Positions 22,517-54,308 of a DNA stretch of 64,000 nucleotides are shown here, piece after piece. The DNA is taken from contig NC_090281.1 of assembly GCF_037392515.1 (NCBI RefSeq), forward strand, positions 48,398,645-48,462,644. The letters are read 5' to 3'. Source of the DNA: Haliotis asinina. Its lineage: Eukaryota > Mollusca > Gastropoda > Lepetellida > Haliotidae. Each line of letters begins with the position of its first letter. Position 1 is the stretch's first letter. The notes under the pieces are model-generated. The model was not told where the DNA came from and did no database searches. It saw only the letters and a program-made list of their open reading frames with translations. The translations under genes and the position numbers were made by a program.

Positions 22517-23267
22517 ATGGCAGGGAGATTTCTCACTTACACTCTCGGAGTGATACTGTGTTGTGCCAGCTGTGCTGCCTTCAAGATAAATTTGCCTACT
22601 TTAAACAAGGGAACTGTTGGCTCTCTTACAAGTCTGAACACTAACCTAGCAGCTCCTGCTCCAATGCCTGCTCCACTCGTGTCTCCATCTATTGGACATC
22701 CAGCAGCTGCTCCAAGTCCATCAGCAGTTGTCCCGAGCCCAACCGCAGCTATTCCAGGGCCAATCGCTGCTGTTCAAGGGCCAACTGCAGATGTCCAACT
22801 TCCAGTCGCTGCTGTCCCGAGCCCCACTGCTTCTGCTTCACAACCATCAGGGGGTGGAGCTCCGCCATCGCTTGGTTCTTTAAATCTGCTTTCAGCAGTG
22901 ATCAAAAAGAAGCGGGATATCTTCAAAGACGTTGACTTCGAAATTTCACCAAGTGCCTTTGGGTTAGATTTCAATATCCTAAAGGGCAAAACTCAGACTG
23001 GGCTGACACAGTTAAACTGTGGGAAGAACTGCATAGACACGGCCGACTGTGTGATGGTTCTACACTGTCAAATGGAAACTAGTCCACCAGTGACAACAGC
23101 GGCGCCTTGTGTGTTTAAGATAGGACAGCCACCATGTCAGTTTAGTGCAGGTGCTGGTAAGTCCAGAACGAGCATTTCCGAGAAGTGTCACTTCTTCAGC
23201 AAGACACCCACACAAAAGGCGTTGGATTATGATGACTGGGGAATCAACTGTACGTACGCCGTTCACC
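22517..23267 (+). CDS. Gene A exon 1: signal peptide, Pro/Ala-rich region, eight-Cys module
   Basis: 751 bp from ATG 22517 to the donor GTAAGT at 23268, coding 250 residues plus one base. The start matches the aligned start of gene B, whose first exon has exactly the same length. Residues 1-21 are a hydrophobic signal peptide, followed by a Pro/Ala-rich stretch with PSPTAA/PGPIAA-type repeats. A basic KKKR run (130-133) could be a furin-like cleavage site. Eight cysteines follow (168, 172, 178, 184, 198, 207, 224, 245), all conserved in B. Spacing and the final C-x-F...C-x-Y pattern loosely recall PAN/apple domains, but the family is not certain. Confidence 0.85.
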
Positions 23268-26200
23268 GTAAGTGTAACTGTGTTAGATGTGCCGAATGCA
23301 TTGAGCAGTACAGAGTTAGTGAGTTCAGTTTTAAACCACTTTTAGCAATATTCCAGCAATATCACAGGTCTTTCAAGTCGTATCAGAGCCTGTCAGTTTG
23401 ATATTGGAGGATGCTGTTATTAGACTAGTGTACAACCAAGAGCATGGTATACATGCAACAAATCTGGAACAATGTTTCTGACCAGGGGGCAACTCAGTAC
23501 AGCAAAAATTGCTAAAACATTGCCACATGTGCCTCCTAAGTAGTCTTAATATTCTCCACTTTTTGCACAGTATGACTTTTCTTTTAATATGATAAAAAAA
23601 ATCCTAAATGAAATAGACGCCGGTCTTCTTTTTCTTTCTTTCTTTCTGTCTTTTTTCTTTTTTTTAAACACACAAGGGGAAAACAGTGATCTTAAGCATT
23701 TTTGAAATCTTAGTTCGGACAGATTTCATTGGCATCATTGACTTTTTGGCATTTTGTTTAGGTGGCGATGCAACATTCACTTTAGATGAAAGTGATCTTT
23801 TGTTAGAGCCTAAGTGTTAAGAGAACATATGCCCTACATTCTGATACAACTGAACCATAACTACTTTGGGCGGTGTGCACAATAAATTTCAACTTACGTA
23901 CATTACATTGAAAGTGACAAATTATGTACATTCATTGCAGAGTCTAAATCTAGGGTATCCGTATTCCACTGAATCCGTTAAAGTATATTGAAGCAGTTCG
24001 TTTACCTTTTTAAGAAACGACCTTTTTCATGAGTATCTTAAAAACCCTTTATTTACTTCTTATAATGTCAACATTAAAACAAAAACGTCAGACCATAGCA
24101 ATGATTATTTATTTTTCCCGGAGTACTAAGATTGGCACCGAAGGTTGACATGTAAATAGAAGCGCCTGTAATCAGCGTTCGGCGTTCGGCGTATAGTTCA
24201 TTTACACTGTACCAAAACCCCTTACAGAATGAAAAGTATTACAAATAAACATAGAAAGGTGCAACTGAAAAGGACAAGTCATGTGAAGGATTTACCTCTT
24301 ACCATTACATTTGGGCGCATGGGAGGTTAATGAATATCAGTGCTGAACTGCAAACTTTGAATCATCTGCTATTGATGTTTCACTGGCACAAGGTCTCCGT
24401 CACGACAAAGTGAAGAAACTGATTCATTCTGCCACGCTTGAATTAGGAAGAACAGTATGAAGAAATATTCCCAGTTCAAAAAGAAACCTGGACCATCTGG
24501 TGGCATCGTTTCCTCATTAAGATGTCCCAGCAAATGTTACGTTGTCAGTTTAATCTAAAGATTTATGATCCCAATTTTTAGTCCAGTTCTTTGACCTCTG
24601 CCTGTAACTGCCCAGAACTGGTTCATCAGCAGTCAAACTAGGAAGATTTTAGTACTCTTCCTTGTTCATTGAGAGAGAATGAGAGAATTCTTGTCAAAAG
24701 AATGATGCATGAAAGGCCTTTCATATCATAGTTGAATCATTCTCAAAAGACATTTTTCCCCAGCAAGAGACGGGATGTGCATCTATACACAAAGGACAAT
24801 TTCCCTGAATGTCTTTGGCACAATTTCCAGTTCCATGCAAAGTGTTTAACAAATCTGCTCCGGAAACGACCAAGACTCTCACTTTCACATGTCAATTGGT
24901 TTGAGATTGATCTGCACAGCTATGTTTAGAATTGCTCACCATGGTCAGTTTCATAATTCTGCTACAAACAATACAGCAACCGTCGTTTAAAATAAAATAA
25001 AATCCGAAAGTGAATTTGTCCAACATGATGAATAACAATATCTTTGACACTAAAATGATAACAGATTTCATATTCTTGGTGTTTTCAACATATATTGTCT
25101 TGATTGTTAAAATCCTTTTGTCTTGTATCACCAGATCCAAATTGCAGAGACCCTAAAGAGATTCCCGAGACCTGGAAGCCAGCTATACGACGTCCGGCAT
25201 TCAGTGAGAACAGCTCGGTTGTGATACACTACGAGTGCAAAGAAGGCTATGCGGCTGATGGTGTTGGCGTCCTTATTGCAACCTGCCATATGGATGGAAA
25301 GGTGGATCTGAAAGAAGATTACAAATGTATCAGTATGTTTATATCTTTTTGCTTTTATCTTTTTGAAGTTAGATCTTCATGTTTTCATGAAACATTTTCT
25401 GCTGAAAACTTTGGCATGTGTCCTTCTGTGAGCAGGGTACGATTTCGTTCAGATCAATATATGTGAGCAGTCTAAGGCAGGTTCACACTTATCTGTGGGA
25501 TTTCCAACAGGTCCAGCACGTGTTACAAGTCAACGGCGTATCCAATTTGCCATGATGGCACATCGAGTAGCTGATCGAACATTTAAAGTTGTGATGATGT
25601 AATACACGAATTTTGAACGGTAAAGGCAACGTATCTAAAATTATGTTCAACGGTATTTTCACTTGAAAGAGTCAGAACAAGATAACTTAAGAAAGGCTAA
25701 ACTCGGAAGATGGAACAGAATATGGCCATGGCAGTAAATGCATCAATGTGTAATAATGGATTCTTTTTCAGTATTACTGTCAATAATTGCAGAATCTCAA
25801 TCTGAAAGTGATGCTCCAGCTCCAAGCCCAGCACCTTTACTCCCATTTCTACCGGGGCCTCCAATAATGTTGACGAATCCTGGTTTTGGTGGCTTCAACC
25901 AAAGACCTGCATATACCCCTGCTCCGACAACCAAAACTACTGCAACACCTGCTCCAGCAACCAAAACTACTGCAACACCTTCTCCAACAACCAAAACTAC
26001 TGCTACCCCTGCTCCAACAACCAAAACTACTGCAACCTCTGCTCCAGCAACCCAAACTACTGCAACCCCTGCTCCAGCAACCCAAACTACTGCAACCCCT
26101 GCTCCGACAACCAAAACTACTGCAACCCCTGCTCCAATAATCCAAACTACTGCAACCTCTGCTCCAGCAACCAAAACTACTGCAACCTCTGCTCCAGCAA

Positions 26201-29200
26201 CCAGAACTACTGCAACCCCTGCTCCAACAACCAAAACTACTGCAACCCCTGCTCCAGCAACCCAAACTACTGCGACCCCTGCTCCAGCAACCCAAACTAC
26301 TGCAACCCCTGCTCCTGCAAACACAACTACTGCCACCCCTGCTCCAACAACCAAAACTACTGCAACCCGTGCTCCACCAACCACAACAACTGCAACCCCT
26401 GCTCCCGCAACCCCTGCTCCAACAACCACAACTACTGCAACCTCTGCTCCAGCAACCAGAACTACTGCAACCCCTGCTCCCGCAACCAAAACTCCCGCAA
26501 CCCCTGCTCCAGCAACCACAACTACTGCCACCCCTGCTCCAGCAACCAAAACTACTGCAACCCCTGCTCCAGCAACTAAAACTACTGCAACCCCTGCTCC
26601 AACAACCAAAACTACTGCCACCTCTGCTCCAGCAACCCAAACTACTCCAACCCCTGCTCCAACAACCAAAACTACTGCTACCCCTGCTCCACCAACCACA
26701 ACAACTGCAACCCCTGCTCCCGCAACCAAAACTCCCGCAACCCCTGCTCCAGCAACCACAACTACTGCAACCCCTGCTCCAACAACCAAAACTACTGCAA
26801 CCCCTGCTCCAGCAACCAAAACTACTGCAACATCTGCTCCAGCAACCAAAACTACTGCAACCCCTGCTCCAGCAACCACAACAACTGCAACCCCTGCTCC
26901 AACAACCAAAACTACTGCAACCCCTGCTCCAGCAACCAAAACTACTGCAACATCTGCTCCAGCAACCAAAACTATTGCAACCCCTGCTCCAGCAACCAAA
27001 ACTACTGCAACCCCTGCCCCAACAACCACTACAGCTGCAACCCCTGCTCCAGCAACCCAAACTACTGCCACCCCTTCTCCTGCAACCAAAACTACTGCAA
27101 CCCCTGCTCCAGCAACCAAAACTACTGCAGCCCCTGCTCCAGCAACCACAACAACTGCAACCCCTGCTCCAGCAACCACTACAACTGCAACACCTGCTCC
27201 AGCAACCACAACTGCTGCAACACCTGCTCCAGCAACCAAAACTACTGCAACACCTGCTCCAGCAACCAAAACTACTGCAACCCCTGCCCCAACAACCACT
27301 ACAGCTGCAACCCCTGCTCCAGCAACCAAAACTACTGCAACCCCTGCTCCAACAACCACTACAGCTGCAACCCTTGCTCCAACAACCAAAACTGCTGCAA
27401 CCCCTGCCCCAACAACCACTAAAACTGCAACCCCTGCTCTAGCAACCCAAACTACTGCAACACCTGCTCCAACAACCACAACAACTGCAACCCCTGCTCC
27501 AACAACCACTACCACGACAACTCCTCCTTCAACCACAACCACGACAACAACTCCTGTGGTGACTACATACACCACAACTACAACCACTACCACCCCTGTT
27601 CAAACCACAACCACGACAACTCCAACCACCACCACCCCTGTTCAAACCACAACAACTCCAACCACCACCACCCCTGTTCAAACCACAACCACGACAACTC
27701 CAACCACCACCACCCCTGTTCAAACCACAACCACGACAACTCCAACCACCACCACAGCTACAACTACACCTTCTACAACTACAACTACGCCTGAAGTCGA
27801 CACGACCGAGTTGAATCCACATAGGCGTAAGTTCAATCTCATTGCCCTTGCCTTGTTCTGCCAGCTGCACGATCCACTCACACAGGATGCATGTAAAATT
27901 GTGCGTTTCTTTTCTCCCCAAATATTTATATACTACAAGACAGATCATATTCAAGATGACATCATAACGCTTTGGCCATATTGTGGGCATAGTAAAGCAA
28001 TTTGCTGGATGCACATATTAATAAACATGTCCTACAGCTTTGACAATATTTCAAGGAGGGTTCAAACTCTCGAATTCCTGTCAAACTAATTCCGAAACTG
28101 CGGACAATGTACCGTTTTGCTTTGTCTTTCTCAAGTATATTGGGAACGCCCAGTTCCGTGTATTGTGTGTTTATGATTTTGCTACAGAAGAAAAGATTCT
28201 AACCACCCGTTCTCGGATTTGTCTTGTAAATATAAGGTGTGTCGCGCTGTAGTGAAGGCCTCCATTGCGCAGTCTTTGCCGATATCCAGCGCAGCATACA
28301 CTGGGAACCAGACTGTCGAGAGTAGGAAACCTAAATATCTAGAGGCACTAAGTTCCCAATTACTTGTCTTTTACCTTATAATTTACTTCTTAGGTTTATT
28401 TTGTTGTTTCAGCACTGGACTGCATGAACGGCTACATCTACAGACTTGACGGTAATGTGTGCTTCCAAGTCTACACTGGCTATGTCCTTAGCTTCGACTA
28501 CGCAGAGTACATGTGTAATTACCTAACTGGTGGGGCAGGTGCACTAGCAGTACTCTCAACGTCGAAAAAGTTCAAAGCGGTTCAACATTACCTGCGTCAC
28601 GGTAAGTACAGAAAACTGCTTCAACACATCAGTTAGTTTTCAAATATCCACCATCATGGAATACCCGTTATTGTGGGGTTATTTTTGTCTCATTGCTGAT
28701 TGATATTTGGATAATATATCTTCTTTGGGTGGCATGTATAGAATCAGACGAGGATAAACTTTATGGATGAACAACTTCGTATGATCAGATCTTTCGATAC
28801 AGATTCTTATATCGTTGCCAAGCAATATATACTTTTTCAAAAAGTAGGGGATAATGAACTTTCAATTAATTTCAAGAACAGACATGTTATGAACGCACCA
28901 CCATTTCCCGCTATTATAAACACAACGCATGATGTGCACGTGCACAACGTCATAGCCCCACGCACGTGCATGGGGTCCCATTCTTTATTTTGACGTTTTT
29001 TCAAGAAGTTCGAGAAATCACTTAGAACATGATTAATTTTGACACTCATCTTGCATCTTGTACCCAACGTACACGGGAACACTTTCCACTGCAACTACAC
29101 AGGGGCATTTTGCGCTCAATGAACACTTTGGGCTCAACGTACACAGGGATACTTTGCACTCAGTAAGCACTGGGACACTTTGCACTCAATAAACACTGGG

Positions 29201-32200
29201 ACACTTTGCACTCAACGTACACAAGAACACTTTGCACTCAACGTACACAGGGACACTTTGCACTCGGTAAACACTGGGACACTTTGCACTCAACGTACAC
29301 AAGGACACTTTGCACTCGGTAAATACTGGGACACTTTGCACTCAGTAAACACTGGGGCACCTTGCACTCGGTAAACACTGGGACATTTTGCACTCAACGT
29401 ACACAGGGACACTTTGCACTCAGTAAACACTGGGACACTTTGCACTCAACGTACACAGGGACATTTGACACTTTGCACTCAGTAAACACTGGGGCACCTT
29501 GCACTCGGTAAACACTGGGACATTTTGCACTCAACGTACACAGGGACACTTTGCACTCAGTAAACACTGGGACACTTTGCACTCAACGTACACAGGGACA
29601 CTTTGCACTCAACGTAAACAGGGACACTTTGCACTCAGTAAACACTGGGACACTTTGCACTCAGTAAACACTAGGACACTTTGCACTCAGTAAACACAGG
29701 GACACTTTGCACTCAACCTACACAAAACACTTTGCACTCAACGTACACAGGGCCTTTGACTTCATTTTTTAAGTATATTTAGAAAATTAGATTTGGCATC
29801 ATATATCAAATGATTAGTAATAAACTAAAATATCAGTGATGACATGACATCGTAGATTGACTGTTAGGCACTACTATTCTCTGACTGGTGATAGCATCCA
29901 GTAGTCCATTGTCTCGTTTGAGTGGTACATGATCATTGATGTGAATTTCAGAGTTCGCAAAAACTGGTTGCCTAGTGGTCTAAGTGGTCTAAGGTACAAC
30001 ATAGTTGCGGTAAACATGTGACATCTGCATCCAGTGTTTGAAATATTTTCAAAATGTTGCTAGCCAATCAAGATGCCTGAAAGTTACTAGCCCACGAAAT
30101 AATTCACTAGCCCGAAATATAAATGGAGAAACTAATCAAAAGATTACAAAATTAGATGCGATATTGTCGGCATTACACGGGTTTCATCATTAAGTTACTA
30201 ATATATTTATGATGAACATCAGTCTTACGTGGTTTAAGAGTGTGTTATAATTTAACAAGTCAGAGATGGTGATATGTTTACAAAATGACCCCCTGAAAAT
30301 TCACGAGCCAGCCGGCCTGTAACTGATGAGGCATAGAAGCCCAAAACGCATACCCGTTAAATCAATACTTGATATGTTTGGTTGCATCAGCGATTCGATT
30401 GTGTCTTTGATAAGAAAAAAAATAACATCACCCATCTAATGAGTTTTGAAAATGTAGCGAGTTAATTTCATCAATATTATTTAATCGATGATATAAAAAA
30501 AGTTGCAAAAAATCATCTAGGCAATCTGACAATAACGATATTTTACCAGAAACATGGTAAACTTATTTAACAGATTTATTAAACCCATTCAACATTCAAC
30601 AGTTGATAACATATTAATTTACTTAATCTTCAATCTATTGTTCAAAAGCGTATAACTCGAAGAAAAGGCATATTCTACTGTTATCTGAAATAAATTACTA
30701 TATCCTCTTTTTATGAAATGTTGTCCATGGAAAAATATTTCGTGTTCTTCAACATTTATATGACAGCGTGAATTCCGTTGTAGTTGTCGGCAAAGGTGTG
30801 ATAAATTAAAGTGTGAACAAGGCCCAGTCTGAACCAGGCCCAATTGCCTATGGTGTTATTTTAATCTGCATATTTGGGAGGTCTGCGTTATGGAAGTAAA
30901 GTTGATTTTTACTAGCCCCGGGCTTGCGGACCAGTGGCTATTTCACACACTATCTGCATCACCTTTCTCCAGCATTATGATCACACGTCGTGATGAAAAT
31001 GGTGTACCGCTCGAAGCGATATAACTCCCAAACCAGAATGGAAAAAAAAACTTGTTTAACTATCGTACCTGTATTTCTTGAGAAGGAGCATAGTTCCATG
31101 CTAAAAAAAACAACAAAGAAAAAGAACATGCTGACAGATAGATCACATCCAAAGTCATACACTGACGATACTGCCAGCACTGAGATTGATATTCATATTA
31201 TTTTAACTCTTTGTTGCATTCAATAGATAAATGGGGCCGTTGGGATATTAATCCATATAGCGCCCCTTCGTCAGGCTGAAGACCCGAGTTCGATTCCCTA
31301 CAAGGCTACATTGTATGAATCCCATATCTGATGTCAACCTGTTGTGATATTGATGCATTAAAGTAGCGTAAGACCAAACTCACTCAAACCATTACACACA
31401 AGAATTATCGTTGATTTAACCTTGTTTGCAGAATACCCTTATGGAGATTATTTCTGGGTTGGGTCCGAGCAATGGAAAAGTAGAGACAACTACTCATACT
31501 ACTGGCTGTTCATATTTTATTACTACTTCAACTACAACTACTGGGCGGACTCTCTTAAAGTTGACAAAAGCTTCTGGGCTCCGGGACAACCTGACAGAAG
31601 TTCTGAAAGATGCAACGCCATCACCCGAAATGGAAACCTACAGCTCATGGACAGCAACTGTGCAAACAGTTTTGACTACATCTGTGATATTCCCGTATTG
31701 GAAGTCGACAGACGTAAGTGGAGCCTTTGTTAATGGCACATTACTAACGCATGTTACACGAAATATGTCCTCATCAGAGACATTCCTATGTTCAAACCAG
31801 GCATACGTGACGTCCACATAACCTACGCATGTCTAATCCTTTTATTCCGGAACAAGCCCGTGTCGGCGTATGAATACCTGAACTAATTCAAACAAGAGCA
31901 ATAACTCTATTTCCATTCAATGGCGATACTTGTAACACTCATGATCACATATCGCTGTACTTCATAAACGAAACAAATTTCTTTGATAACTACAATGAGG
32001 AAAATGAAGTAATTTGTTGAAAACATTTTCTACCTTAAACTGTTCTCAGCTGTTCCTGACTAAATAATGTTTTTAAAATGTTTTGTATCTGTTTCACGTT
32101 GCCCACATCTAATAGTAATTTCTAGGGAAACGAATAATGCCCGTGTATTAGCAAGCCATGATACATGAACCACGCCACATGTGCATATATGAACATCATT

Positions 32201-34323: not shown

Positions 34324-34526
34324 TCATGAACCAAGGAGTATTTTGTTTAGATTTTGAAAGTAGGCAGTGTTATGTTGTTAATATTTGACAGGAAACACTC
34401 AATCGCTCACTGGTTCCAGGTATGACGTATTATGTAGACCGGTAGGAATACTTCCTTGGATATTTTATGTGAGACAGTTCATTATGTAAAACAGACTTGG
34501 TGCTGTTCGAAGATAAAGTTTTTTAT

Positions 34527-34532
34527 AATAAA
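34527..34532 (+). terminator. Putative poly(A) signal of gene A
   Basis: AATAAA about 205 bp after the stop codon, the first canonical hexamer downstream. It would give a 3' UTR of roughly 220 bases. Confidence 0.45.
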
Positions 34533-35880: not shown

Positions 35881-36354
35881 GAGATTGGCAAGGAATGACA
35901 ACTTCTTTATTCAAGGGTGTACATAATCATCTGAGAATGCCACCACCTTGGAAACGGACCCCTTGCGTCACCCCTTATTAACTTATTAAACTATGTTCAC
36001 AAACAAAGCAAGGCAAAACAGAAACTTACATAAGTAGTTCATGTGTGCCGACAAAAGCCCTCAATCGTCGGACATTTTATCTCATCTGCCAACAATGTAT
36101 TGATAAAACAACAGACCTTTCCAGATATCGTCTCTAATTAATCATAAAAACTTTGCATATTTTGTACTGCCTCGCGTACAGTTGGGTTCCTACAGCTGTC
36201 ACTGTAGTCGCAATCATCCGTTGTTCTTAATCCGTTAATTTTCCTTTTAATCCCCTTGGTTGACACGTCATCGTACACGTCATCTGTCTGGTCCTGACAG
36301 ATCACTACCCACAGATTACCGCCATAGATGGAATGTTGCTGAATGAACAAGAAA

Positions 36355-36712
36355 TGAACAAACATCTATGAACTGCGACAGAGCAGTATTTGTTGAATTA
36401 TCACACGCGGAAGATGAACAAACATCTATGAACTGCGACAGAGCAGTATTTGTTGAATTATCACACGCGGAAAATGAACAAACATCTATGAACTGCGAGA
36501 GAGCAGTATTTGTTGAATTATCACACGCGGAAAATGAACAAACATCTATGAACTGCGACTGAGCAGTATTTGTTGAATTATCACACGCGGAAAATGAGCA
36601 AACATCTATGAACTGCGAGAGAGCAGTATTTGTTGAATTATCACACGCGGAAAATGAGCAAACATCTATGAACTGCGACAGAGCAGTATTTGTGGAACTA
36701 TCACACGCGGAA
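36355..36712. repeat. 60-bp tandem repeat, six copies
   Basis: Exact 60-bp period: AACATCTATGAACTGCGA, GAGCAGTATTTGTTGAATTA, TCACACGCGGAAAATGA. Copies differ at only a few positions, so the array is young. Confidence 0.9.
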
Positions 36713-37479
36713 ACAATTACATATAGGTTAGAACAAACCCAATGCAAAGTAATTACATATCATTTACTAATGTAAAACTTCTGGAGGTACCATTAGCTTG
36801 GGAACATACGAACTGATGTCTCATTCCATAAATCATGTCACACTGTCGTATCATGTATGTCGAGTTTAGCCTGGTTAAGATACGATAAGAGATATATATA
36901 AGAGATATAAGCATCCCGGAAGATATATTGTGTATACTCAATTCACAAAAACATGCAATTAAATTACATGCACAAATTGAATGCTTCCACACATATACAC
37001 AATACAACTGAGCTAATTCAATACAGTGGTGCACGTTGGTAAAGAGACTGAATGATTTTATTTTTTAGTTGGAGAGTCCTGTTATAGCCTCCCGTGGTTG
37101 ACGGTGTCATACGAAACTCCTCAACGTCTCCGTTATCTCAATGTATTCACTAGGTTGTATAGTCGACATTACCTCTTCTAAACTGATGTAAAATTTCATC
37201 CACTAAAGTCTGTTTGAAATTTGAAAAACGACCAAAACCAACATTATTGCGAAAAACATAGCCCAATATTGTATGCAGAGGATGGTTAGCGTGCACAGCA
37301 TGATTTAAAAAACAAAACAAAAAACCGGGAAAAGTCAAAACCATGTAAGGTAGCTGCAGTCACCCAAGCACGTGCACTAAGGGCATAAAAGTGATCTCGA
37401 GAACATGTCAGACATCCACTGTGTTAAAAAAAGGACCATAGACATGCCACGACAAAACGCGAGTGAGCCCTGGGGATAA

Positions 37480-40838: not shown

Positions 40839-40864
40839 TTTTTTTTTTTTTTTTTTTTTTTTTT
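40839..40864. repeat. Poly-T run
   Basis: About 25 consecutive T after TTGCTG; no tail of a recognised LINE is attached. Confidence 0.8.
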
Positions 40865-42971: not shown

Positions 42972-43432
42972 CCCTGACTGACCACATGAATCAGGTTTTG
43001 TATATAAAGCCATTACTCACGTCACTGACCTATACGTTATACACATCCGTTAGATCCGTCGACGTAGGGAGGTATTAATTGACATTTACTGATAGCCTTG
43101 AGAATTAAGGGTCCTATCCCGAGAGCTGAATACATTAAACAGAGGCTAGAATTCCGATGCACCTTGCAAACGTATCGAAACAAATAGATTGTTTAAATAT
43201 ATGACGTTGAAAGAGACTAATGAAATGGTTAGCTCTACGACAGACATATTAAATCATCTGCGTATTTTTCTCTTGCATTCTTATGACAAAGACATCATTG
43301 ATGATGCAGAAAGTTTTATTATCAAGAACACTGTCTATAAACAGCATTTAAAGATTAACATTCATCGTTACATACCAAAATCAACATGGCTGTATTGTAA
43401 CCAGTGAGTAATTGCGTTTCATCCTACTAATA

Positions 43433-43932
43433 TACTCTTTAAAAAAAGTAGGGGGACTGTATTTTCAATGTATGATTATCGAAATTGAGAGACATATGGC
43501 ATTGAATCAATGCTGATACAATAATAATGGATGTTTTGAGAATGCATCCCCACATGGATTTCATTCAAAGCAACGCCACTCGTTCAGTTATCCCCCATGT
43601 TGGTGACTGGAGTATGAAAATTTCAGGTTTCAAAGTTTCAGTCAGTGGTGTGTTATTTGACTCTGAAAACCCTGACCATGCGCAGCTGCAAGTAACCTAT
43701 CGGAAAAAAATGATCTACAATGATTTATCCACCTGCCTGGAAAACGTCAAGATTCGTAATGACACCCCATGCACGTGTAGGAGGCTCCCACGTTGAGCAC
43801 ATGCTTCACATGCATTGTGTTGCTCGTGAAATGATGCTGATTGCACGAGATGAATCTCATTGTAACGTTCCTCAATAGGTTTTCCTCTACCAGACTTGAA
43901 AGTTCAGGTTCTCCTACATTTTTGGGAGAGTA
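43433..43932. mobile_element. MITE with TA duplication downstream of gene B
   Basis: Left TACTCTTTAAAAAAAGTAGG and right CTCCTACATTTTTGGGAGAG(TA) form inverted termini of about 26 bp with TA flanks (43431-43432, 43933-43934). 500 bp, non-coding, ending only about 100 bp beyond the gene B stop codon. Confidence 0.55.
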
Positions 43933-44029
43933 TATTTATATAAAAACATAGCTCTGCATGTAAAAATTCCAAACTATCAATATTGCAAGAATCGATACTG
44001 GCCAACGTGGCTGGGCGTTCAACTGTCAC

Positions 44030-44256
44030 CTATATCGGAATATCACATATGAAGTATAATGACCTATAGGAACAGGATACGTCATTCAGCTTATAGCCCA
44101 TCTCTCTCCTGAGGTCGGCGCAATCCTCATATATGCTGCTAGGCTCTCCATGTGCCCATACGGCTGAGTTTACGAGCGTACCATCGTTCCATTCATTCCA
44201 CTCCCACCACATGGAGGTCTGAGTTGCTCCAACAAGGTATGGGCGTGTCTCGCCAA
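44030..44256 (-). CDS. Gene B exon 7: second half of C-type lectin-like domain 2 and stop
   Basis: Acceptor CTGCAG upstream of 44256; stop TAG at 44032-44030. Codes YLVGATQ, a Trp-rich strand (MWWEWNEWND), HGEPSS, a Cys, YKLNDVSC and YFICDIPI. EPS and LND occupy the calcium-ligand motif positions, as in gene A. Confidence 0.8.
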
Positions 44257-46525
44257 CTGCAGCAGAGAAAAGGTCAGGAGTATTTATTTTATAGCTCCTC
44301 ATCCACATCACATAGGGACATGCTATACGCACACAAGTCAGAGTTCATTATTACCCCGGATATTCCAGTCTGCCAGTCTCACATGACTTATCCCACCGGG
44401 TACCCAGTTTGTGCAAGGTGAACAAAATCAGTTTGGAAGAATTTCACTTAGGTCAGACCACATGTATCACATGTGCCTCGTTGTGGGGCTGGACTGAAGT
44501 GCTAGAAATTCTCAGGGGTCAAACTGCCAAACACTGTCTCCCATCCAGTCACTATCCAAGCCCAACGTTGCTAAACTTCAACTCATTTGTGACCTGATCT
44601 CAATGTTTAATGCACTCAGCAATATTCCAGCTGTATTGCAGCAGTCTGTAAATAATAGAGTCTGGAGCAGATAATCCAGTGATTATTATCATTACCATCG
44701 ATCTACGCGAGCTTGAAAACCCCATCCTCTTAGTCGCCTCGTACGACAAGTATGGGTTGCTGACAATTCTAACCCGCGTCTTTGTGCCTTTTACAGCAAT
44801 ATCCCTGCAATATTACGTCGATGAACGCCAGAAATGGGGGTAATAATTTACCCCCACCCCCACCCCCACCCCCACCCCCACCCCCGCCCCCTCAATGTAT
44901 AGAAGGTATAAGCCAGTTTTACAGATGTGTCGTCGGAAAATGAGAAATACGCCATTGGCAAATCATGTAAGACTTAGCAGATGGATGGAAGGATGGATAG
45001 ATAGATGGATGGATGGATTCTTACGTTCTATCAGATGTTCCTTCACATGGTTGAACTTCTCCATGGTATTGAGAACGGCTAGTCGACCTCTCCCGTACCC
45101 ATCAGATGAGCACTTGTCTTGAGCTTGATATGCATTCGCTTTAAGGTGAACGATTTTGAAACAAAGCTTGGACTCCCTGTGAAACACATAGTCGCTGTCA
45201 CACTGCCATGCTGGAAACAGGAACATGGTGACAGTTTCTGCTGATCAACACCAACTCGTAAGTGATTGAGTTTAGTTTTACGCCGCACTCAGCAATATTC
45301 CAGCTATACGGCGACACTCTGTGCAATCAAGTCTTGACCAAACAATCCAGTGATGATAAAGCATGCTACGATGGTCCGGGATACGATAACATGCATCAGT
45401 CGAGTCAGCGAGACTAACCACCCGATCCACTTAGTCGCCTCTTAGGACAAGCATGAGTTGCTGAAGACCAATTCTAACCCGCATCTTCAGGGGTTATTGT
45501 TCAGTGGATGTTGATGCTAACGTTTTCAGTCAATCAGAAGATGTTTTATAGTATGTCGGGTAGATAAACTAACGAGTTCAGCCAAGGAGAAGGTGTTTAT
45601 GATATATCGGGTAGATAAACTAACGTTTCAGCCAATCAGAACGTTTTTCATGGTATGTCGTGTATATAAAGTAACGTTTTCAGCCAATCAGGAGGTTTTT
45701 CATATCATGTCGGATGAATAAATTTTCTGTCAATCAGAAGGTGTTTCATGGTCTATCGGATAGATAAACTAATGTTTTCAGCCGGTGAGGTGTTTTATGG
45801 TATGTCGGATAGGTAACATTTCCAGCCAATCAGAAGGCGTTCGGGTTCCAGCGCGGGAATATTCCACATTTAGTCATAGTTGAAAAGTTATTAAAAACAT
45901 CAAAAAACACACTCACGTCTGTCGGGTTCCAATACAGGAATGTCACAGATGTAGTCAAATTTGTAACTGCATTTGCTGTCCATGAGTTCCAGGTTTTTCC
46001 TTCGGGTGATTGCGTTGCATTGCTCATAATTTCCGCTGGGTTCCCCCGAGGCCCACAGTTTATAGTCGACCTTATGCGAGTCACTCCAGTAGTTATAGTC
46101 GTAGAAGTGGAACTTGTTCACCCAACCGTAGTAGTAGTAATATACGTAGTAATAGAAGGAGTGATAGTCCCAATTTCCCGACTGTTCTGATCCTACCCAG
46201 AAATATGTCCCATCCTTGCGTTCTGGAATACATTAATTTACATAAATATTAACTATGATGTCTGCAGACATGTTACAATCGTCTACGACCAAATGCCCTG
46301 TTATTCTGAAACTCTATCTCAGTGAGTGAGTGAGTTTTACGCCGCACTCAGCAATATTCCAGCCATATGGTGGAGGCCTGTAAATTATCGAGTCTTGACC
46401 AGACACGCCAGTGATCACTAGCATGAACATAGACCAAGTCAGCGAGCCTGCCCACCCGATCCTGTTTGGACAAGAATGGGTTACTGATGACCAATCTTAA
46501 CGCGTACAATAAACAATAAACGCAA

Positions 46526-46565
<40 letters not shown>

Positions 46566-49500
46566 TCTCTCTCTCTCACTCTCTCACTCTCTCTCTCTCT
46601 CTCTCTGTATTTTTTTTTGTTATACTTACTGTCCCGCAGAAAATGTTGAACTGCTTTAAACTTTTTGGTAGTTGATAGAGAGGCAAGTCCCCCAGCCCCT
46701 CCAGTTAAGTAATTACACATGTACTGTGCGTTGTCAAAGCTCAGGGCGTAGCCGGTGTAGACTTGGAAGCACAGATTGGCATCGAGGTCATAGATGTAGT
46801 CGTTCATGCAGTCTCGGGCTGAAAAATGGAATACACATTTCAGATCAACGCAAAAGATAATTTCTTATTTCAGTTAACGAGTTCCTTTTATCAACGTGTG
46901 CGTGCGCGAAAACGTGCGTGCGTGTCTACGTTGTCTGTAGATTGCTTCTTCTTTCATCTATAAGTGTGTACCAAATGTGTGACAGCGACCTTCAAAAACA
47001 ATCCCATGAAAGTGAGTGAATTTGTTTTTACGCCGCCGATTTCAAAAGTTGTCTCGTCATATCCGTGCGTGAGGTGAGGCTTAAACCCGAGTGAATGACT
47101 TTAGATTTACGTCTCACTTGGTAGTATTCCGGCTACAATCCAATGATCAACAGCATGAACATTGATCTACGCGAAAGCCTGTCCACCGGATATCGTCAAT
47201 CGCCTCCTACGAATTGCTGTCCCTGAAACTAATCCGCCGGTAACACCGAGGATGGATCATAACTCCCAGTGGTTGATATAAAGAATGACTGATATTGCTG
47301 AGGAATTACAGATCACGTCATTACCATTACATCAAGTAACGATATCAGAAAATCCAATACTTTTGTCAGTGGGGTACACAAAGTACGTACTCTACGACAA
47401 GGTATCAGATTTTTGTTGTAGAGGAGGTGGCTGAGTGGGCTATATTACCGACATTAGGAGTCTCGCTGAGTGTTTTGGTAAAAGAGACAGGTAATCAACA
47501 GGCGTGTGTTGTGAAGATAGGGTCATCTCAAAAGCCGTTATCTGGTTACCACTTAAGATGTTCAATGGGAGTCAGTGTTGCCACTTTCAGAAGACGCTGT
47601 TGTCTGGATTGGTGTAGCTGTCGTCAGAGTCTACCCTGATGACGACTGGCTTGATGGTGGCATGGTCCAGTCCAATTTGTTCCCAATAATGTCTTTCTGT
47701 TTCATTCTCAGCTTTCCCAACGCACTTTTGCCATGTTCCCTGCGTGATGGTGTCTATTGACTGTTGAACAATCGTCTGTACATCCCGAAGTTTGAATGTT
47801 ACATTTTGCCTGCCAACATCCAATTTCATGATACGCCAAATGAGTTCTATTGGGTTCAAATCGCAATGATAGGGTGGCAATCGCAAAACTGAATGACCAT
47901 GGTCTGTAAGGTACTCATCAACCTTAAAGACAGGTGTGGTTTTATTTGACTTTATGATGTCAGAACAGGATTGGTTGCTTTTGCTGGATACGATATTGCT
48001 TTGTTTTGCAACCATTCTATCACGTCCCCGCTTCTTACTGTTAGATGTTGGGGCCTTTGCATTAGGTACTTGAACGTCATGATATGGAGCGTTATCCATG
48101 ACAATCAAACTTTTGGGGGGCAGTGCTGGTACCAATTGCTATTGTACCCATTCTAAGAAAACCATCCCGTTCATTTCGGTATGATAGTCTCGGTTACTTT
48201 AGATTTTGCCTTGAAGACTAGGGAGCAGCCAGGTAGGAATCACCGACTCTTGCAACCAGCATGGAGCACAATCAGTCGTTCTCCCTTGCCAAGTGGTAAT
48301 TTTCTGGCACGGGATTCTGAAGAGGAGCTAGCGAACTATTGTGTCCCTCCTGTGGCATGGGAAACACATCATCAGGGTGATGCAATTCATGGAATCAAAC
48401 GGACTGTATGTAATGTCATCAAAATGACACATGTTATACACATATTATATGCAGTCTTCGTGAAAAGATAATAACAATAAAAATGTGTTTGTAATTTGTC
48501 CCAATGATGCACGTGATAGGCACGACAGCTATGTTAAATGGAAGATTAATGAGACACGTGTCCGTGTAACATGTTACAGGGTAGCATTCATCATGCTACA
48601 GTAAGAGACGTTGTAACAGGTGTTAATTTAGAACAAGAAATTCTACATATTTTGTTTCTGTGCTATTAATAACTGGGTTCCCTCGAGTATTTTTTATCAC
48701 GAATAATTGTGAGACGTCTCTTCATTCACATTACATATACCTCTATATTTTGTACTTACGCCTTAAATCATTCATCTCAGTAGTTTCGATTAGGGGCGTT
48801 GTTGTAGTTGTAGTAGTTGTACTTGTAGTTGTAGTTGATGTACTTGTAGTTGGCGTGGTCGTTGTAGTCGGAGCGAGGGTTGTAGTTGTAGAGGTGGTTG
48901 TAGTTGTGGTCGTAGCGGAAGTTGTAGTTGTTGTAGTGATGCTTGTAGTTGTTGGAGTGATGGTTGTACTCAGTCCGGGAGTTGTAGTAGCAGTGGTTGT
49001 TGTAGTCGGAGCAGAAGTTGTAGTTATAGCCGGAGTGGGGGTTGCAGCTGTGGTGGTTGTGGTCGGAGCGGGTGTTGCTGTAGTGGTTGTAATCGGAGCA
49101 GGAGTTGTAGTTGTAGTCGGAGCGGGTGTTGTAGTTGTGGTGGTTGAGGTCGGACCGGGTGTTGTTGTAGAGGTGGTTATAGTTGGGCCGGTGGTTGTCG
49201 TGGTGGTTGTGGTTGGAGCGGGAGTTGAGGTTGTACTGGTGGTTGTAGTCGGACCGGGAGTTGACGTAGTGCTTGTGGTTGTAGTCGGACCGGGAGTTGA
49301 CGTTGTGCTGGTAGTTGTGGTCTGACCAGAAGTTGACGTTGTACTGGTGGTTGTAGTCGGACCGGGAGTTGACGTTGTACTGGTGGTTGTAGTCGGACCG
49401 GAAGTTGACGTTGTACTGGTGGTTGTGGTCTGACCAGAAGTTGACGTTGTACTGGTGGTTGTAGTCGGACCGGAAGTTGACGTTGTACTGGTAGTTGTAG

Positions 49501-52500
49501 TCGGACCCGAAGTTGACGTAGTACTTGTGGTTGTAGTTGGATCGGGAGTTGATGTTGTACTTGTGGTTGTAGTCGGACCGCCAGTTGACGTTGTACTTGT
49601 GGTTGTAGTCGGACCGGGAGTTGTAGTAACAGTGGTTGTTGTAGTCGGAGCAGGGGTTGTAGTTGTAGTCGGAGTGTGGGTTGTAGCTGTGGTTGTTGTA
49701 GTGGTTGTAATCGGGGCAGGGGCCGTAGTTGTATTCGGAGCTGGCGTTGTTTTTGTGGTGGTTGTGGCCGGAGCTGGTGTTGTTTTTGTGGTGGTTGTGG
49801 CCAGAGCTGGTGTTGTTTTTGTGGTGGTTGTGGCCGGAGCTGGTGTTGTTTTTGTGGTGGTTGTGGCCGGACCGGGTGTTGCAGTAGTTGTTGTTGGAGT
49901 GGGAGTTGTAGTGGCAGGGGCGATCGTAACTTGGGGCCTTTGGTTGAACCCACCAAAATTAGCACTATTCGTTAATGTTATGAGCGGTTGAGGTGTTAAA
50001 ACTGGCAGAGAGAACAGACTTGGTACCGGAGCAGAAGCTGGAAGGCCACTTCCTGATCCTGCACAGAAGGACGACATGATCGATAATCAGTATCACATTA
50101 CCCCATTGTACATATTTATCGGTACGATACAGTAATACGATACGACTATCGAACGTTACAACTGCACAAGGACGGTCAAATCAAAGTAGTCTGATATGAT
50201 ACAGTATATTCAGAGACAGTTTTGCATTACGTTTCTCTTTGTATTGCTTGGAAGGTCGAATGAAACCTAAATTTTCGTAATTAATCATATTTCTCATCCT
50301 GAATACCACTATTAATTATGTTTCGGACTTTTTTCGTTGTTTATCGCCGCACTCATGAGTATTAAATATGGCGTCAAGATCAAAAGACGCCACAATGTCC
50401 GTCATTCAAAAAACCCAATAAACAAAACATATACCCTCGAGGCAGTTAGACGGTGTATATTCCAGCAACATAGAACGTTGGTTTTTTGGGGGGTTGTTTA
50501 ACACCACATTCAGCAATATTTCAGCTATATAGCGGCAGTCTTGAATTATCGAATCTGGACCAGACAATCCAGTGGTCAACATCATGAGCATCGATCTATG
50601 CACGTGGGATACGATGACCTGTTAATCAATTCAGCAAGCCTAATTTCCCGGCCCCGTTAGTCGTCTCTTACGGCAAGTAGATCTGCTGGAGATCAGTTAC
50701 GACTGAACGCTTTCACCACTAGGCTAGCCCATCGCCCCCCAAAGATAAGTGTAGCGTCCTGTGGGGCCCCTGACACTAACCCGCTCACATATAATGCTCT
50801 GAATGAAATTGTACACTGTACGCTGAAGGACACATCCCGAAGTAGGACAACATGAAAACATTATGAAAACTTGACTTTTGATATTTAAAAAGCATGCAGT
50901 TCTGAAAGAAACGAAATTCATATATACAGAAAGATATACATACTGATACATTTGTAATCTTCTTTCAGATCCACTTTTCCATCCATATGGCAGGTAGCAA
51001 TAAGGACGCCAATACCGTCAGCCGAATAGCCTTCTTGGCACTCGTACTGTATGACAACTGTACTGTTCTCCCCGAACACCAGGGGACGTTTAGCTGGCTT
51101 CCAGGTCTCGGGAATCTCTTTAGGGTCTCTGCAGTTTGGATCTGGTGATACAAGGCAAAGAGATTTTGAATATCAAGACAATAGATGTAACATGTGTCAA
51201 CAATAGATATTGAAAAGGGCAAGTGTGATATCAGCTGTTTCTGATCGTGCCCTTTCCTTGTGAATTATACCCAAACGTTCCGCACTGCATTCACGCAGAT
51301 AAAACGTAATCTGTTTTAAAAAGTAACTAAAGTTAAATTATATTGATTTCGTTTGGCTTATCCGGTTTCCTGAATTCATTAATGCATTGCAGAGTGATAA
51401 AATGGATACCATTAGAGAAAGGCATTAATTGTCCAATTTTGATTGTCCAGTCTTAATTGTCCGATTTTAATCGTCCAGTCTTAATTGTCCAATTTTAAAT
51501 TGTCCAGTCTTAATTGTCCAATTTTAAATTGTCCAGTCTTAATTGTCCAATTTTAAATTGTCCAGCCTTAATTGTCTAATTTTAAATTGTCCAGCCTTAA
51601 TTGTCCAATTTTAATCGTCCAGTCTTAATTGTCCAATTTTAAATTGTCCAGCCTTAATTGTCTAATTTTAAATTGTCCAGCCTTAATTGTCCAATTTTAA
51701 TCGTCCAGTCTTAATTGTCCAATTTTAAATTGTCCAGTCTTAATTGTCCAATTTTAAATTGTCCTGTCTTAATTGTCCAATTTTAATTGTCCAGTCTTAA
51801 TTGTCCAACAGAAAGAACTGAAATCCAATGACCAGTGGCTTCCAAAACCAATCTATTGAGAAACGTGACTGAAAGCAACCGATGCAGTGATAAGTGACAA
51901 ATATCTTTATTCCCTGATACAACTTAATTGCAGCGAATATCTACTATATAGTCTCGTGAAGCTCAGCAGCAGCAGAGATAGTCATGAAGCGGTCCCGGAT
52001 TGGACTAGTAGAAAAGTATTAGAATCCGCTTGTACCTGGGTGTAACATATGTTAGCTGCAACACAACATGTTACAGAGTAACTCTGTAAAAGAAGGAGCG
52101 CAACTGTGTTTTCCAGACTATGCATTATATAAATGATTAGCAGATCATAAGAAATGTTCACATTTGGCACAGGTCATTGTGACTGACCGAAGTTCTTCAT
52201 CTTACATATGAAGCTCTTTTCTCACTCTTTTGCATGGCCGCCATGAAAGACGAGAGCTGCCTGGTACTGTCGCCTCGTGGAACCAGCCAGGTTAAGACTT
52301 GTGGTCTGACGAATGGTCGCCTTCTCCTCTTGCAGTGCTTGTGCCAACTCACAGTCAAACTGTAGCGCAAATGGGGTTGCGCAGTATAGAGAATATGACA
52401 AGTCTTCTTATATGCGAGCGAAGCGAGCAAAGGTTGGCAACGTACTTTCCTCGCTTTGGATCGAAGAATTGTTTTCATGTCAAAATAAATTATCGCCATT

Positions 52501-54308
52501 ATCAAAGGTACACTTCCATTTCTTTACTTGGTTGTGCTGTCACATTTCTTACCCCATGTTTATTAATTACTCACGTGAAATATGTTTTACCCCTGTCAGC
52601 TTCCGGTTGAACGGGGCGGTGGGGTAGCCTAGTGGTTAAAGCGTTCGCTCGTCACGCCGGAGACCCGGGTTCGATTCCCCACATGGGTACAATGAGTGAA
52701 GCCCATTTTCTGGTGTCCCCCGCCGTGATATTGCTGGAATATTGCTAAAATGCGGCGTAAAACTAAAACTCACTCACTCACTCACTCCGGTTGAACGGAG
52801 TGACGGAGCAAGAACAAGCAGAAATTAGAAAGAAATACCACATTGCCTAATTTTATCAAGAACCTGTTGGAGTTTATTTGCCTTATCTGTCATCGCTATT
52901 GGTAGAATTTTCGTAACATTTATTCCACACAAAAGCACATCTGGCGCAATGGACGATTGAAGCAGGGGAGGTAACTGTAAGTATTCCATATAGAATAATA
53001 CCCTCCTGTTCCTTCACTCCGTTGAACCGGAAGCTGGAAGGGGGAATGGGGGAGAAGAACGGTCTGATATACCACGAGTTCCGCTTAAAATGTTGAATAA
53101 AAAATATTTCACGTGAGTAATTGTTCAACATGGGGTTGGAAATGTGAAAGCGCAACCCAGTGAAGAAACTGCGTTGCCATCCTTTGCTCGCTTCGCTCGC
53201 ATGTAAGAAGACTGGTCATTTTCCCTATGCTGCACAACCCATTTGCGCTACAGTTTGCCTGTGGCCAAGTGCTGCAGGTTCTGTGGCTGTTGCTGATGTA
53301 GTGGCAGACGTTGATCTCATGGAGTATGCCATAATTGTTCGGGTTTTACACATTGCACTCCCATGGGAATCGAACCGGGCCCCCGGCGTGACGAGTCATA
53401 GTTTTCACTATACTACTCCACCGCACCCATCTTGCAGTGACGCTTGATGTATTCAATATAATGTTAGCAATGAATCTCAAACGCCGTTATAGTTTCTGAC
53501 TTTGGTTCGGAAGGGGCCATCAAATCATGACAAAAATGTAGCGATCAAAATACTTACGGTATACAACATAGGTGCAGTTGCTCCCAAAGTCACTTTTATC
53601 AAAAGCCTTTTGCGTGGGTGTCTCTTTGAAGAGATAGCAGTACTCTGGCGTACCTGCCTTAGACTTGCCAGTTCCTGGGTTAAATTTGCAAGGCGGCTTG
53701 CCAATCTCAAACACGCAGGGCGCAGCTGTTGTCACGGATGGACTTGTGTCCTTTAGACAGTGTAAAGCCATCACACAGTCTTCCGTTTCTATGCATTTCT
53801 TCCCACATCTGGACTGTGTCAGATCTTTCACATGAATGCCCTCTAAGATATTGAAATCTAACCCAAATGCAATCGGAGAAATTTCGGAGTCAATTTCTTT
53901 GAATATGACCAGCTGCTTTTTTAACCCTGAAGATAACGGATAGAAAGTACCCAGTGATGGTGAGGCTCCAGGCCCCGACAGTGACGGAGAGGCTGCAGTA
54001 GGACCCGGAACAGCCGGAGCAGGGCCCGGAACAGCTGCGGATGGGCCTGAAACAGCTGCAGTAAGACCCGGAACAGCTGCGATAGGACCCGGAACAGCTG
54101 CAGCTGCAGAAGGAGCTGGTGTTGGACTCGGCGCAGAAGGCTGAGGCAGGATTGGAGCTGGGATTGGGGCCAGCGATATGGATGCCGAGTTAGTGTTCAA
54201 ATTTACAGGTACACCAATAGTCCCTATGGGCATTTTCGGTAGATTCAACGACATGGCGGTGGAGCACCACGCCGCAATGAAAACACAATCTATTACTTTC
54301 ACTGTCAT
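44030..54308 (-). CDS. Gene B: paralog of gene A, secreted mucin with sushi and two C-type lectin-like domains
   Basis: Seven exons on the - strand: 54308-53558, 51141-50944, 50058-48760, 46818-46630, 46222-45917, 45210-45025, 44256-44030. They join in frame to 1051 aa with phase 1 at every junction. The domain order is the same as gene A: signal peptide, Pro/Ala region, eight-Cys module (250 residues in exon 1, as in A), sushi, Thr-rich mucin segment (317-749), CTLD1 (about 750-914), CTLD2 (about 915-1051). B faces A tail to tail, with stop codons about 9.7 kb apart, so the pair arose by inverted duplication or by inversion after tandem duplication. Its introns are packed with repeats that are absent from A, so those insertions came after the split. 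Confidence 0.85.
44605..44815 (-). mobile_element. SINE, long family, in gene B intron 6
   Basis: TGCACTCAGCAATATTCCAG, TAAATAATAGAGTCTGG and CTTAGTCGCCTCGTACGAC. Confidence 0.5.
44849..44892. repeat. (CCCCCA)n in gene B intron 6
   Basis: Six to seven units of CCCCCA on the + strand, followed by CCCCCGCCCCC. Confidence 0.9.
45025..45210 (-). CDS. Gene B exon 6: first half of C-type lectin-like domain 2
   Basis: 186 bp, acceptor TTTCCAG, donor GTAAGA, phase 1-1. Codes WQCDSDYVFHRES, CFKIVHLKANAYQAQDKC and LAVLNTMEKFNHVKEHL. A GATG/GATA microsatellite begins only a few bases after the donor. Confidence 0.8.
45257..45495 (-). mobile_element. SINE, long family, in gene B intron 5
   Basis: GTGATTGAGTTTAGTTTTAC, CGCCGCACTCAGCAATATTC, ACCCGATCCACTTAGTCGCC and GTTGCTGAAGACCAATTC. 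Confidence 0.6.
45525..45845. repeat. Tandem repeat of about 58 bp in gene B intron 5
   Basis: Five to six diverged copies of TCAGCCAATCAGAAGG, TTTCATGGTATGTCGG and ATAGATAAACTAACG. Confidence 0.75.
45917..46222 (-). CDS. Gene B exon 5: second half of C-type lectin-like domain 1 with Tyr-rich insertion
   Basis: 306 bp, phase 1-1, donor GTGAGT. FWVGSEQ is followed by an insertion rich in Tyr (including a run of YYYYY), then NYWSDSHKVDYKLWA, GEPS, C, LMDSKC and YICDIPVLE. It is eight codons longer than A, all within the aromatic insert. The EPN/QPD position reads EPS. Confidence 0.8.
46319..46500 (-). mobile_element. SINE, long family, in gene B intron 4
   Basis: CAGTGAGTGAGTGAGTTTTA, CGCCGCACTCAGCAATATTC, GAGTCTTGACCAGAC; the 3' half is shortened. 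Confidence 0.55.
46527..46607. repeat. (CAT)n and (CT)n microsatellites next to gene B exon 4
   Basis: About 12 CAT units followed by a CT-rich run; they end only about 20 bp from the exon 4 donor. Confidence 0.9.
46630..46818 (-). CDS. Gene B exon 4: first half of C-type lectin-like domain 1
   Basis: 189 bp, acceptor TTTTCAG, donor GTAAGT. Codes RDCMNDYIYDLD, CFQVYTGYALSFD, a Cys and TGGAGGLASLSTTKKF, matching gene A exon 4. A poly-T tract and (CT)n/(CAT)n simple repeats lie within 125 bp of the donor. Confidence 0.8.
47580..48370 (-). mobile_element. DDE_3 (IS630/Tc1-superfamily) transposase relic in gene B intron 3
   Basis: Upstream frames show GKGERLIVLHAGCK, LVFKAKSK and MNGMVFLEW. Then an open stretch of about 180 codons reads SLIVMDNAPYHDVQVPNAKA, KVDEYLTDHGHSVLRLPPYH, CDLNPIELIWRIMK and FKLRDVQTIVQQSID. 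The Asp in MDNAPYH and the Glu in NPIELIW are the second and third catalytic residues of the family. The N-terminal third is missing and early stops are present. Confidence 0.65.
48760..50058 (-). CDS. Gene B exon 3: Thr-rich mucin segment
   Basis: 1299 bp, 433 residues, acceptor TGTGCAG, donor GTAAGT. The leader holds FGGFNQRP as in A. Then come KTTPAPATTTT units and about ten copies of a 36-bp unit coding variants of TSGPTTTTSTTS, then poly-Thr blocks, then TTEMNDLR as tail. Leader and tail are homologous to A but the tandem unit is not the same, so the array has turned over since duplication. Confidence 0.85.
50490..50738 (-). mobile_element. SINE, long family, in gene B intron 2
   Basis: CATTCAGCAATATTTCAGC, GAATCTGGACCAGACAATCC, CCCCGTTAGTCGTCTCTTAC and a tRNA-like head remnant CCACTAGGCTAGCCC. 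Confidence 0.55.
50944..51141 (-). CDS. Gene B exon 2: sushi (CCP) domain
   Basis: 198 bp, acceptor CACCAG, donor GTATGT, phase 1-1. The reading frame carries NCRDPKEIPETWKPA, YECQEGY, ATCHMDGK and DYKC, very close to gene A. It is easily missed because an overlapping longer open frame runs through the same bases. Confidence 0.85.
51419..51815. repeat. 29-bp tandem repeat in gene B intron 1
   Basis: Alternating TTAATTGTCCAATTTTAAA and TTGTCCAGTC units, about 14 copies; it has a higher-order pattern of AATCGTCC every few units. Confidence 0.85.
52350..53263. mobile_element. Foldback element, copy 2, in gene B intron 1
   Basis: Same family as 41577-42971: left CACAGTCAAACTGTAGCG, right CGCTACAGTTTGCCTGTG, shared GCGAAGCGAGCAAAGG near both ends. 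Flanked by imperfect 7-bp repeats GCCAACT (52343-52349) and GCCAAGT (53264-53270). A SINE is inserted in its left arm at 52615-52785. Confidence 0.6.
52615..52785 (+). mobile_element. Complete tRNA-derived SINE with target-site duplication
   Basis: The head GGTAGCCTAGTGGTTAAAGC (A-box-like) and GGTTCGATTCC (B box) read as a tRNA-like promoter. The body holds GAAGCCCATTTTCTGGTGTC and GATATTGCTGGAATATTGC and ends in (ACTC)n. A 13-bp duplication TCCGGTTGAACGG lies on both sides (52602-52614 and 52786-52798). This is the reference copy for the short (A) SINE family here. Confidence 0.75.
53340..53430 (-). mobile_element. SINE head fragment in gene B intron 1
   Basis: GGAATCGAACCGGGCCCCCG and GCGTGACGAGTCATAG are the reverse of the tRNA-like head of the short family; no body. 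Confidence 0.4.
53558..54308 (-). CDS. Gene B exon 1: signal peptide, Pro/Ala-rich region, eight-Cys module
   Basis: 751 bp from ATG (54308) to a GTAAGT donor just below 53558. Hydrophobic signal peptide (about 1-19), then PAPSAAAAVPGP-type repeats, then the module whose eight cysteines all match those of A (CGKKC, EDC, LHC, PC, PPC, YC, NC). The KKKR site of A reads LKKQ here, so a furin-like site is missing. Confidence 0.85.

Follow-up and report, generated by a model that had tools for sequence, protein, structure and literature searches.

What do two large, mirror-image genes in the genome of the gastropod Haliotis asinina encode, and do they represent a family of their own? The genes, referred to here as A and B, lie tail to tail on a stretch of 64,000 nucleotides (contig NC_090281.1, positions 48,398,645 to 48,462,644; hereafter the window, in whose own numbering positions are given). 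An initial annotation, made from the sequence alone, had described them as a convergent pair of genes combining mucin, sushi and lectin parts. The analysis presented here suggests that A and B probably encode secreted bridging mucin-lectins, with a head that is conserved and a posterior part that is changeable. Jointly with this reading, and with the same degree of confidence, the pair would represent functional inverted duplicates.

Exons and modules of genes A and B

Gene A was located on the forward strand at 22517-34323 (spliced frame of 3882 nt, 1293 amino acids) and gene B on the reverse strand at 54308-44030 (3156 nt, 1051 amino acids), with both frames found to be open. Each gene consists of seven exons, and their introns were found to possess GT-AG borders (12/12) and to lie in phase 1 (12/12), splicing having been deduced from sequence and from the concordance between both copies. 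The outer limits of the initial annotation, 22517 and 54308, correspond to the two start codons, with the frames ending at 34323 and 44030. Its claim that the exons of the two genes match one to one in the same phases held when every exon was mapped and its reading frame and splice sites were verified.

Exon 1 (22517-23267 on the + strand for A, 53558-54308 on the - strand for B, these strands applying to all exons of each gene; 751 nt in both) encodes a hydrophobic leader, read as a signal peptide, followed by a Pro/Ala-rich stretch and an eight-cysteine module that is PAN/MANEC-like. A sushi domain is encoded by exon 2 (25135-25332 and 50944-51141; 198 nt in both). The mucin segment of exon 3 is rich in Thr, Ala and Pro in A (25793-27826; 2034 nt, 677 complete codons, with 30-bp repeats) and in Thr, Pro and Ser in B (48760-50058; 1299 nt, 432 complete codons). 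Two C-type lectin-like domains (CTLDs) follow, each divided between two exons. The first half of CTLD1 is encoded by exon 4 (28413-28601 and 46630-46818; 189 nt in both) and its second half by exon 5, which carries an aromatic-rich insert in A (31432-31713; 282 nt) and a Tyr-rich insert in B (45917-46222; 306 nt). CTLD2 begins in exon 6 (32263-32448 and 45025-45210; 186 nt in both) and is completed in exon 7 with the motifs EPS and LND and the stop codon (34082-34323, 242 nt, and 44030-44256, 227 nt, stop included).

Comparison of counterpart exons of A and B using tblastn gave E values from 2.8e-18 to 7e-82, the mucin exon matching more weakly at its short unique ends. A simple count over 1794 sites outside the mucin exon gave a dS of 1.02, a dN of 0.27 and a dN/dS of 0.27, and the ratio was well below 1 in each exon where it was computable (the synonymous sites of the first CTLD2 exon being saturated). 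The value of 0.27 shows that both genes have been under purifying selection and have remained protein-coding since their split. The first twelve mature cysteines, those of the eight-cysteine module and the sushi domain, occupy the same residue numbers in both proteins (168, 172, 178, 184, 198, 207, 224, 245, 254, 285, 301 and 315). Gene A encodes 27 cysteines and gene B 26, which upon removal of those of the leader (three and two, respectively) leaves 24 in each mature protein (8+4+6+6), equal to the need of the four folded modules.

The mucin exon was found to have a combined Pro, Thr, Ser and Ala content of 87% in A and 84% in B, to contain tandem repeats and to be cysteine-free in both genes, and the segments showed no Pfam match at E<=0.1. 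Cysteine-free Thr/Pro-rich segments of this length (677 and 432 codons) would be in keeping with a structural gel-forming mucin, a class in which VWD, C8 and cystine-knot domains are the parts involved in polymerisation. However, none of these three domains was matched in the exon 1, mucin exon, sushi or CTLD parts scanned. Furthermore, a disulfide-linked gel is disfavoured because the folded modules account for all of the mature cysteines and no surplus would exist for polymerisation through disulfides, and a gel-forming role for A and B is regarded as quite unlikely.

The sushi domain of A scored 26.3 bits (E 1e-5) with the Pfam model Sushi (PF00084), above its curated cut-off of 20.7 bits, while that of B, at 20.7 bits, reached the printed cut-off exactly, with four cysteines present in each. 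CTLD1 passed the cut-off of Lectin_C (PF00059, 22.6 bits) in both genes, with the match extending across both halves (A, 35.7 bits, E 1.6e-8; B, 41.1 bits, E 3.3e-10). CTLD2 was found to align to CTLD1 with common cysteines and also to match other CTLD-like places in the genome. A profile built from the four CTLDs matched 58 distinct sequences of the PDB at E<=0.01, the best being the macrophage mannose receptor (E 1.1e-8), and all four were read from their sequence as long-form CTLDs. These results bear out the string of Pro/Ala stretch, eight-cysteine module, sushi domain, mucin segment and two CTLDs that had been described at first, together with the paralogy of the pair.

At the calcium site, CTLD1 has QPD in gene A, EPS in gene B and LMD in both, and CTLD2 has EPS with LND. 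The canonical set for calcium-dependent sugar binding consists of EPN or QPD together with WND, and such binding by the CTLDs of A and B is possible but not assured. The CTLD1 inserts of exon 5 contain 14 aromatic residues out of 24 in A and 18 out of 32 in B, with 12 of the 32 residues in B being Tyr.

Further genes with a PAN-like and sushi head

Searches of the genome (1.14 Gb in 159 contigs, with places named as contig:position) using the modules of B and of two further members, C and D, identified at least 11 genes with a head composed of the PAN-like module and a sushi domain. In addition to A and B in the window, these comprise four genes of the C type (C2:34603043, C2:34623178, C2:35713249 and C2:35728699) and five of the D type (C8:48655885, C8:48589097, C8:48639050, C8:6375906 and C1:17980476). 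Four places with E values of 0.06-0.72, located on C13 (two), C14 and C16 and with internal stops in each, were excluded from this count. A family sushi exon was identified downstream of the module in all 11 members, that of C8:48589097 lying approximately 11 kb off and being assigned from position only, and seven of the eight family sushi sequences scanned matched Pfam Sushi at E<=0.1. A sushi profile, which included most other members, also recovered two genes outside it, C2:34623178 (E 2.8e-23), where TAT stands at the position of the last sushi cysteine, and C2:35713249 (E 2.6e-21). In C, D and C8:48639050, the exon border that follows the module and those near the beginnings of the sushi domain and of the tail were read by eye as phase 1, with the exception of the sushi start of C8:48639050. 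The suggestion that the architecture could define a family stands in part: no named family with it was met in the open-licence papers searched, but the family is defined by its PAN-like and sushi head and not by the whole domain string.

When scanned alone against Pfam, the modules of A and B gave a single match, that of B to PAN_3 (E 0.026; E 0.018 for the trimmed module), and matched no PDB chain. An hmmscan of the 11 members at E<=1 identified PAN_3 in seven, MANEC in five, PAN_4 in three and PAN_1 in three, with PAN_2, Dickkopf_N and two unrelated families matched by one member each (PF08277, PF14295 and PF00024 being the models of the PAN/apple superfamily). Among 22 shuffles that preserved the cysteines (two per member), neither PAN nor MANEC was matched, while five other families appeared once each. 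In a per-member scan covering nine of the 11, the best matches were to PAN_4 (E 3.8e-4), PAN_3 (E 8.3e-4) and MANEC (E 9.5e-4), with PAN or MANEC found at E<=0.01 in four members. With a profile of the 11 modules, the PDB chains matched at E<=10 were limited to two heavy chains of factor XI, a protein with apple domains, aligned at the CxxxC...C motif. The eight cysteines described by the initial annotation are present in A and B, but the comparison of profile matches with shuffles indicates that the module is no orphan, as it resembles the PAN/apple-MANEC superfamily without being a formal member of it.

Downstream of the head, the family was found to vary. In A and B the tail is a Thr-rich mucin segment with two CTLDs. 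Member C (C2:34.60 Mb, - strand) has a tail of approximately 1046 codons formed by an array of a 29-residue repeat rich in Ser, Gly, Gln and Glu, followed by a stop; a phase-1 donor at the end of this exon was considered and rejected, as the letters there are a stop and then a weak GT. The cysteine-free tail of member D is 462 codons long and has a high content of Thr and Ser, and that of C8:48639050 is short and Pro/Ala-rich, each being followed by a stop. The CTLD profile gave no match at E<=0.01 in the sequence beyond the tails, scanned over approximately 20 kb for C and D and approximately 9 kb for C8:48639050, and no CTLD was found by tblastn (C and D) or among reading frames, although a very divergent CTLD could escape these searches. 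The double-CTLD tail is accordingly present in two of the five members examined downstream (A and B), and the idea of a CTLD in every family member was dropped as regards those examined, three of the five being without a CTLD match. A homologous start of the repeat exon in the four genes A, B, C and D was also considered and rejected, the C/D alignment being unconvincing.

Among the CTLD candidates in the genome, 150 of 636 were scored. On the - strand at C4:68.57 Mb, a mucin-like exon is followed downstream by one CTLD bearing EPN and LND, and these exons are presumed to form one gene. This locus was rejected as a full member of the family, as no match to the PAN-like or sushi profiles occurred in 40 kb. 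The existence of three members with a head and a tail without a detected CTLD, and of the C4 locus, where no head was detected beside the mucin-like exon and the CTLD, is what may be expected if the exons on each side of the window belonged to two or more separate genes, one with the head and mucin segment and another with the CTLDs. However, the mucin exons of the two genes close with matching GT donors in phase 1, the phase in which the CTLD exons continue (no search was made for a separate start ahead of the CTLDs), and such a division is considered highly improbable.

The strong difference of the repeat exon among family members speaks in favour of the view that A and B encode proteins of the shell or mantle matrix, with the Thr-rich repeat being a fast-evolving low-complexity domain of the mantle secretome and the CTLDs acting on mineral or matrix in the manner of perlucin. 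Mantle secretomes are described as often containing proteins in which repetitive domains of low complexity are combined with older ones (PMC4897951), and abalone nacre contains perlucin, which is a C-type lectin (PMC6003135). However, the abalone and limpet shell proteomes, in the passages available (PMC6003135, PMC3374290), name CTLD and sushi proteins, none of them with this domain string, and a role in the shell matrix is judged unlikely. A broader suggestion, offered tentatively and short of being probable, is that the head may be a universal adaptor whose tails (mucin rods, other repeats, or mucin rods with tandem lectins) have been exchanged via phase-1 borders, forming a modular kit for mucus or surface recognition.

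Proposed function and its weighing

As read from its sequence, each protein runs from the leader through the Pro/Ala stretch, the PAN/MANEC-like module, the sushi domain, a cysteine-free Thr/Pro-rich rod and two long-form CTLDs to the stop. Because both frames end directly after CTLD2, secretion fits better than anchoring in a membrane. The head would bind a partner or matrix component, and the rod, predicted to be O-glycosylated, would space the lectin pair away from that partner. The CTLDs may bind glycans or proteins; CTLD2, which has most of the usual ligands for calcium, could do so through them, and CTLD1 may use its aromatic-rich loop. The molecule would in this way bridge mucus or another extracellular layer to a target, for example microbes, mucus glycans or surfaces. 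Across the family, the head would act as the conserved cassette, with the posterior part (mucin or other repeat, with or without CTLDs) varying. The initial description of the proteins as mucus or surface lectins may be retained in this conditional sense.

Mucin-like proteins are hard to trace, as their repeats change fast. A conserved and searchable head would let genes with mucin and lectin tails be found and compared across gastropods, and genes marked by it would allow the gain of recognition domains by mucins via phase-1 exons to be tested.

A number of results weigh against the proposed proteins and their head. The N-termini of A and B are hydrophobic, and their predicted signal peptides were read by eye. 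All matches of the module to PAN and MANEC fall below the curated cut-offs of Pfam, which were reached by none of the nine members of the per-member scan (20.9 bits against 27 for PAN_4, 19.6 against 21.1 for PAN_3, and 19.8 against 25.5 for MANEC, PF07502). The module of A (in two Pfam scans) and that of member C (in the per-member scan) matched neither PAN nor MANEC, the whole of exon 1 of A and of B gave no Pfam match at E<=0.1, and a genome-wide MANEC search listed four other places, with genes of the A/B family not among them. The E values of the factor XI chains (1.9 and 2.9) are not significant, and structure prediction of the module failed, giving a mean pLDDT of 33.6 alone and of 35.4 with A and B aligned. 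Links between the A/B, C and D types by the module alone are weak (best cross matches at E 0.006-0.02); they rest also on the adjoining sushi exon and the common phases, and a sushi search with B independently found the same two distant places. Regarding the lectin part, CTLD2 of A and B gave no Pfam match to Lectin_C at E<=1, and the full ligand set of EPN or QPD with WND is absent, by reading, from all four CTLDs.

Other features of the window and known systems

The sushi exon with its flanks (25088-25342 in A, 50934-51188 in B) was found to be 89% alike between the two genes over 255 nt, compared with 70-79% for four other listed exon pairs, and the dS of the sushi exon is 0.31. The introns flanking this exon scored 59 and 73 for similarity, compared with at most 34 among 50 random pairs and 17-27 for the other introns. 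The similarity of this tract fits gene conversion, with constraint being possible instead. At 16322-16642 (- strand), head to head with gene A, lies a third, decayed copy that covers the first part of exon 1; its start codon is lost, an in-frame stop is present and the similarity runs on upstream.

The decayed copy and the possible conversion tract, together with the clustered members, the tandem CTLDs and the sushi domain, are features that may point to an immune recognition factor of haemolymph or mucosa, similar to other molluscan multi-domain lectins and with a family that has grown under pressure from pathogens. For bivalves, an immune role is discussed for CTLD proteins that carry sushi domains (PMC10140915). 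This role is seen as rather doubtful: comparison of A with B showed no sign of diversifying selection, dN/dS remaining well below 1 per computable exon.

The sequence 5' of both start codons is also alike (score of 48, the highest among 50 random pairs being 34). A 28-bp element is common to A (22335-22362, + strand) and B (54467-54494, - strand), situated 155 and 159 bp before the respective start codons. The pattern drawn from these two sites had no further match in the window at up to three mismatches (0.00 expected in shuffles). TATA-like sites with a putative promoter role lie closer to the start codons (22400-22413, + strand, for A; 54415-54428, - strand, for B).

Within the intron of gene B between the mucin segment and CTLD1, a frame resembling the DDE_3 endonuclease was identified (47590-48138, - strand; E 1.5e-9), which is probably a transposase remnant. 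The window also contains a tandem array of approximately 82 copies of a 12-bp unit (12387-13374) and six near-identical copies of a 60-bp unit (36352-36713), while Rfam and tRNA scans of its 64 kb were empty. The molluscan origin supposed in the initial annotation agrees with 16 genome matches to the molluscan haemocyanin beta-sandwich domain, found as two clusters of eight on one contig (C2:96.26-96.32 Mb). The two haemocyanin frames searched had as their top-scoring solved chain 3j32, a chain of abalone haemocyanin. Taken by themselves, these matches suggest a gastropod, perhaps a vetigastropod.

The initial annotation assigned the architecture of A and B to no named family, and none was found in literature searches, which were limited to open-licence papers and thus do not show its absence from print. 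Among vertebrates, the group XIV CTLD proteins (endosialin/CD248) combine a CTLD with sushi-like and mucin-like parts in one chain, as do A and B, but with the CTLD at the N-terminus, EGF repeats and a membrane-anchored chain. The architecture was not seen in the available passages of PMC7333891, PMC6003135, PMC3374290, PMC6368272 and PMC10140915. As described in the part of PMC12940448 available, the MANEC of HAI-1 is likewise an N-terminal eight-cysteine motif and a subclass of PAN/apple; HAI-1 is, however, a membrane inhibitor of serine proteases that also contains PKD-like, Kunitz and LDLRA domains, and the module of the A/B family scores under the MANEC cut-off. The adhesive protein P-vulgata_14 of Patella vulgata differs in also possessing M12A peptidase, ApeC, CUB, kringle and ShKT domains, with a mucin rod not listed in the passages available (PMC7333891). 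In the same source, the secreted Tc-MUC mucins of Toxocara canis are similar in placing diverse mucin domains between conserved cysteine motifs, but they belong to a nematode and their flanks are of the six-cysteine, ShKT-like type.

A further comparison, made by description, is with the Conserved Anterior Mollusk Proteins (CAMPs) of Cornu aspersum mucus, for which the available part of PMC10475054 mentions no PAN-like module, sushi domain or CTLD in its section 9. The tails of the CAMPs are fibrinogen-like (CAMP1 and CAMP3) or a Gal-specific lectin (CAMP2), and CAMP2 and CAMP3 ran below 40 kDa (PMC10475054). What they have in common with A and B is that they are secreted and join a conserved anterior part, Ser/Thr-rich in the CAMPs, to C-terminal recognition domains that differ from one protein to another (PMC10475054).

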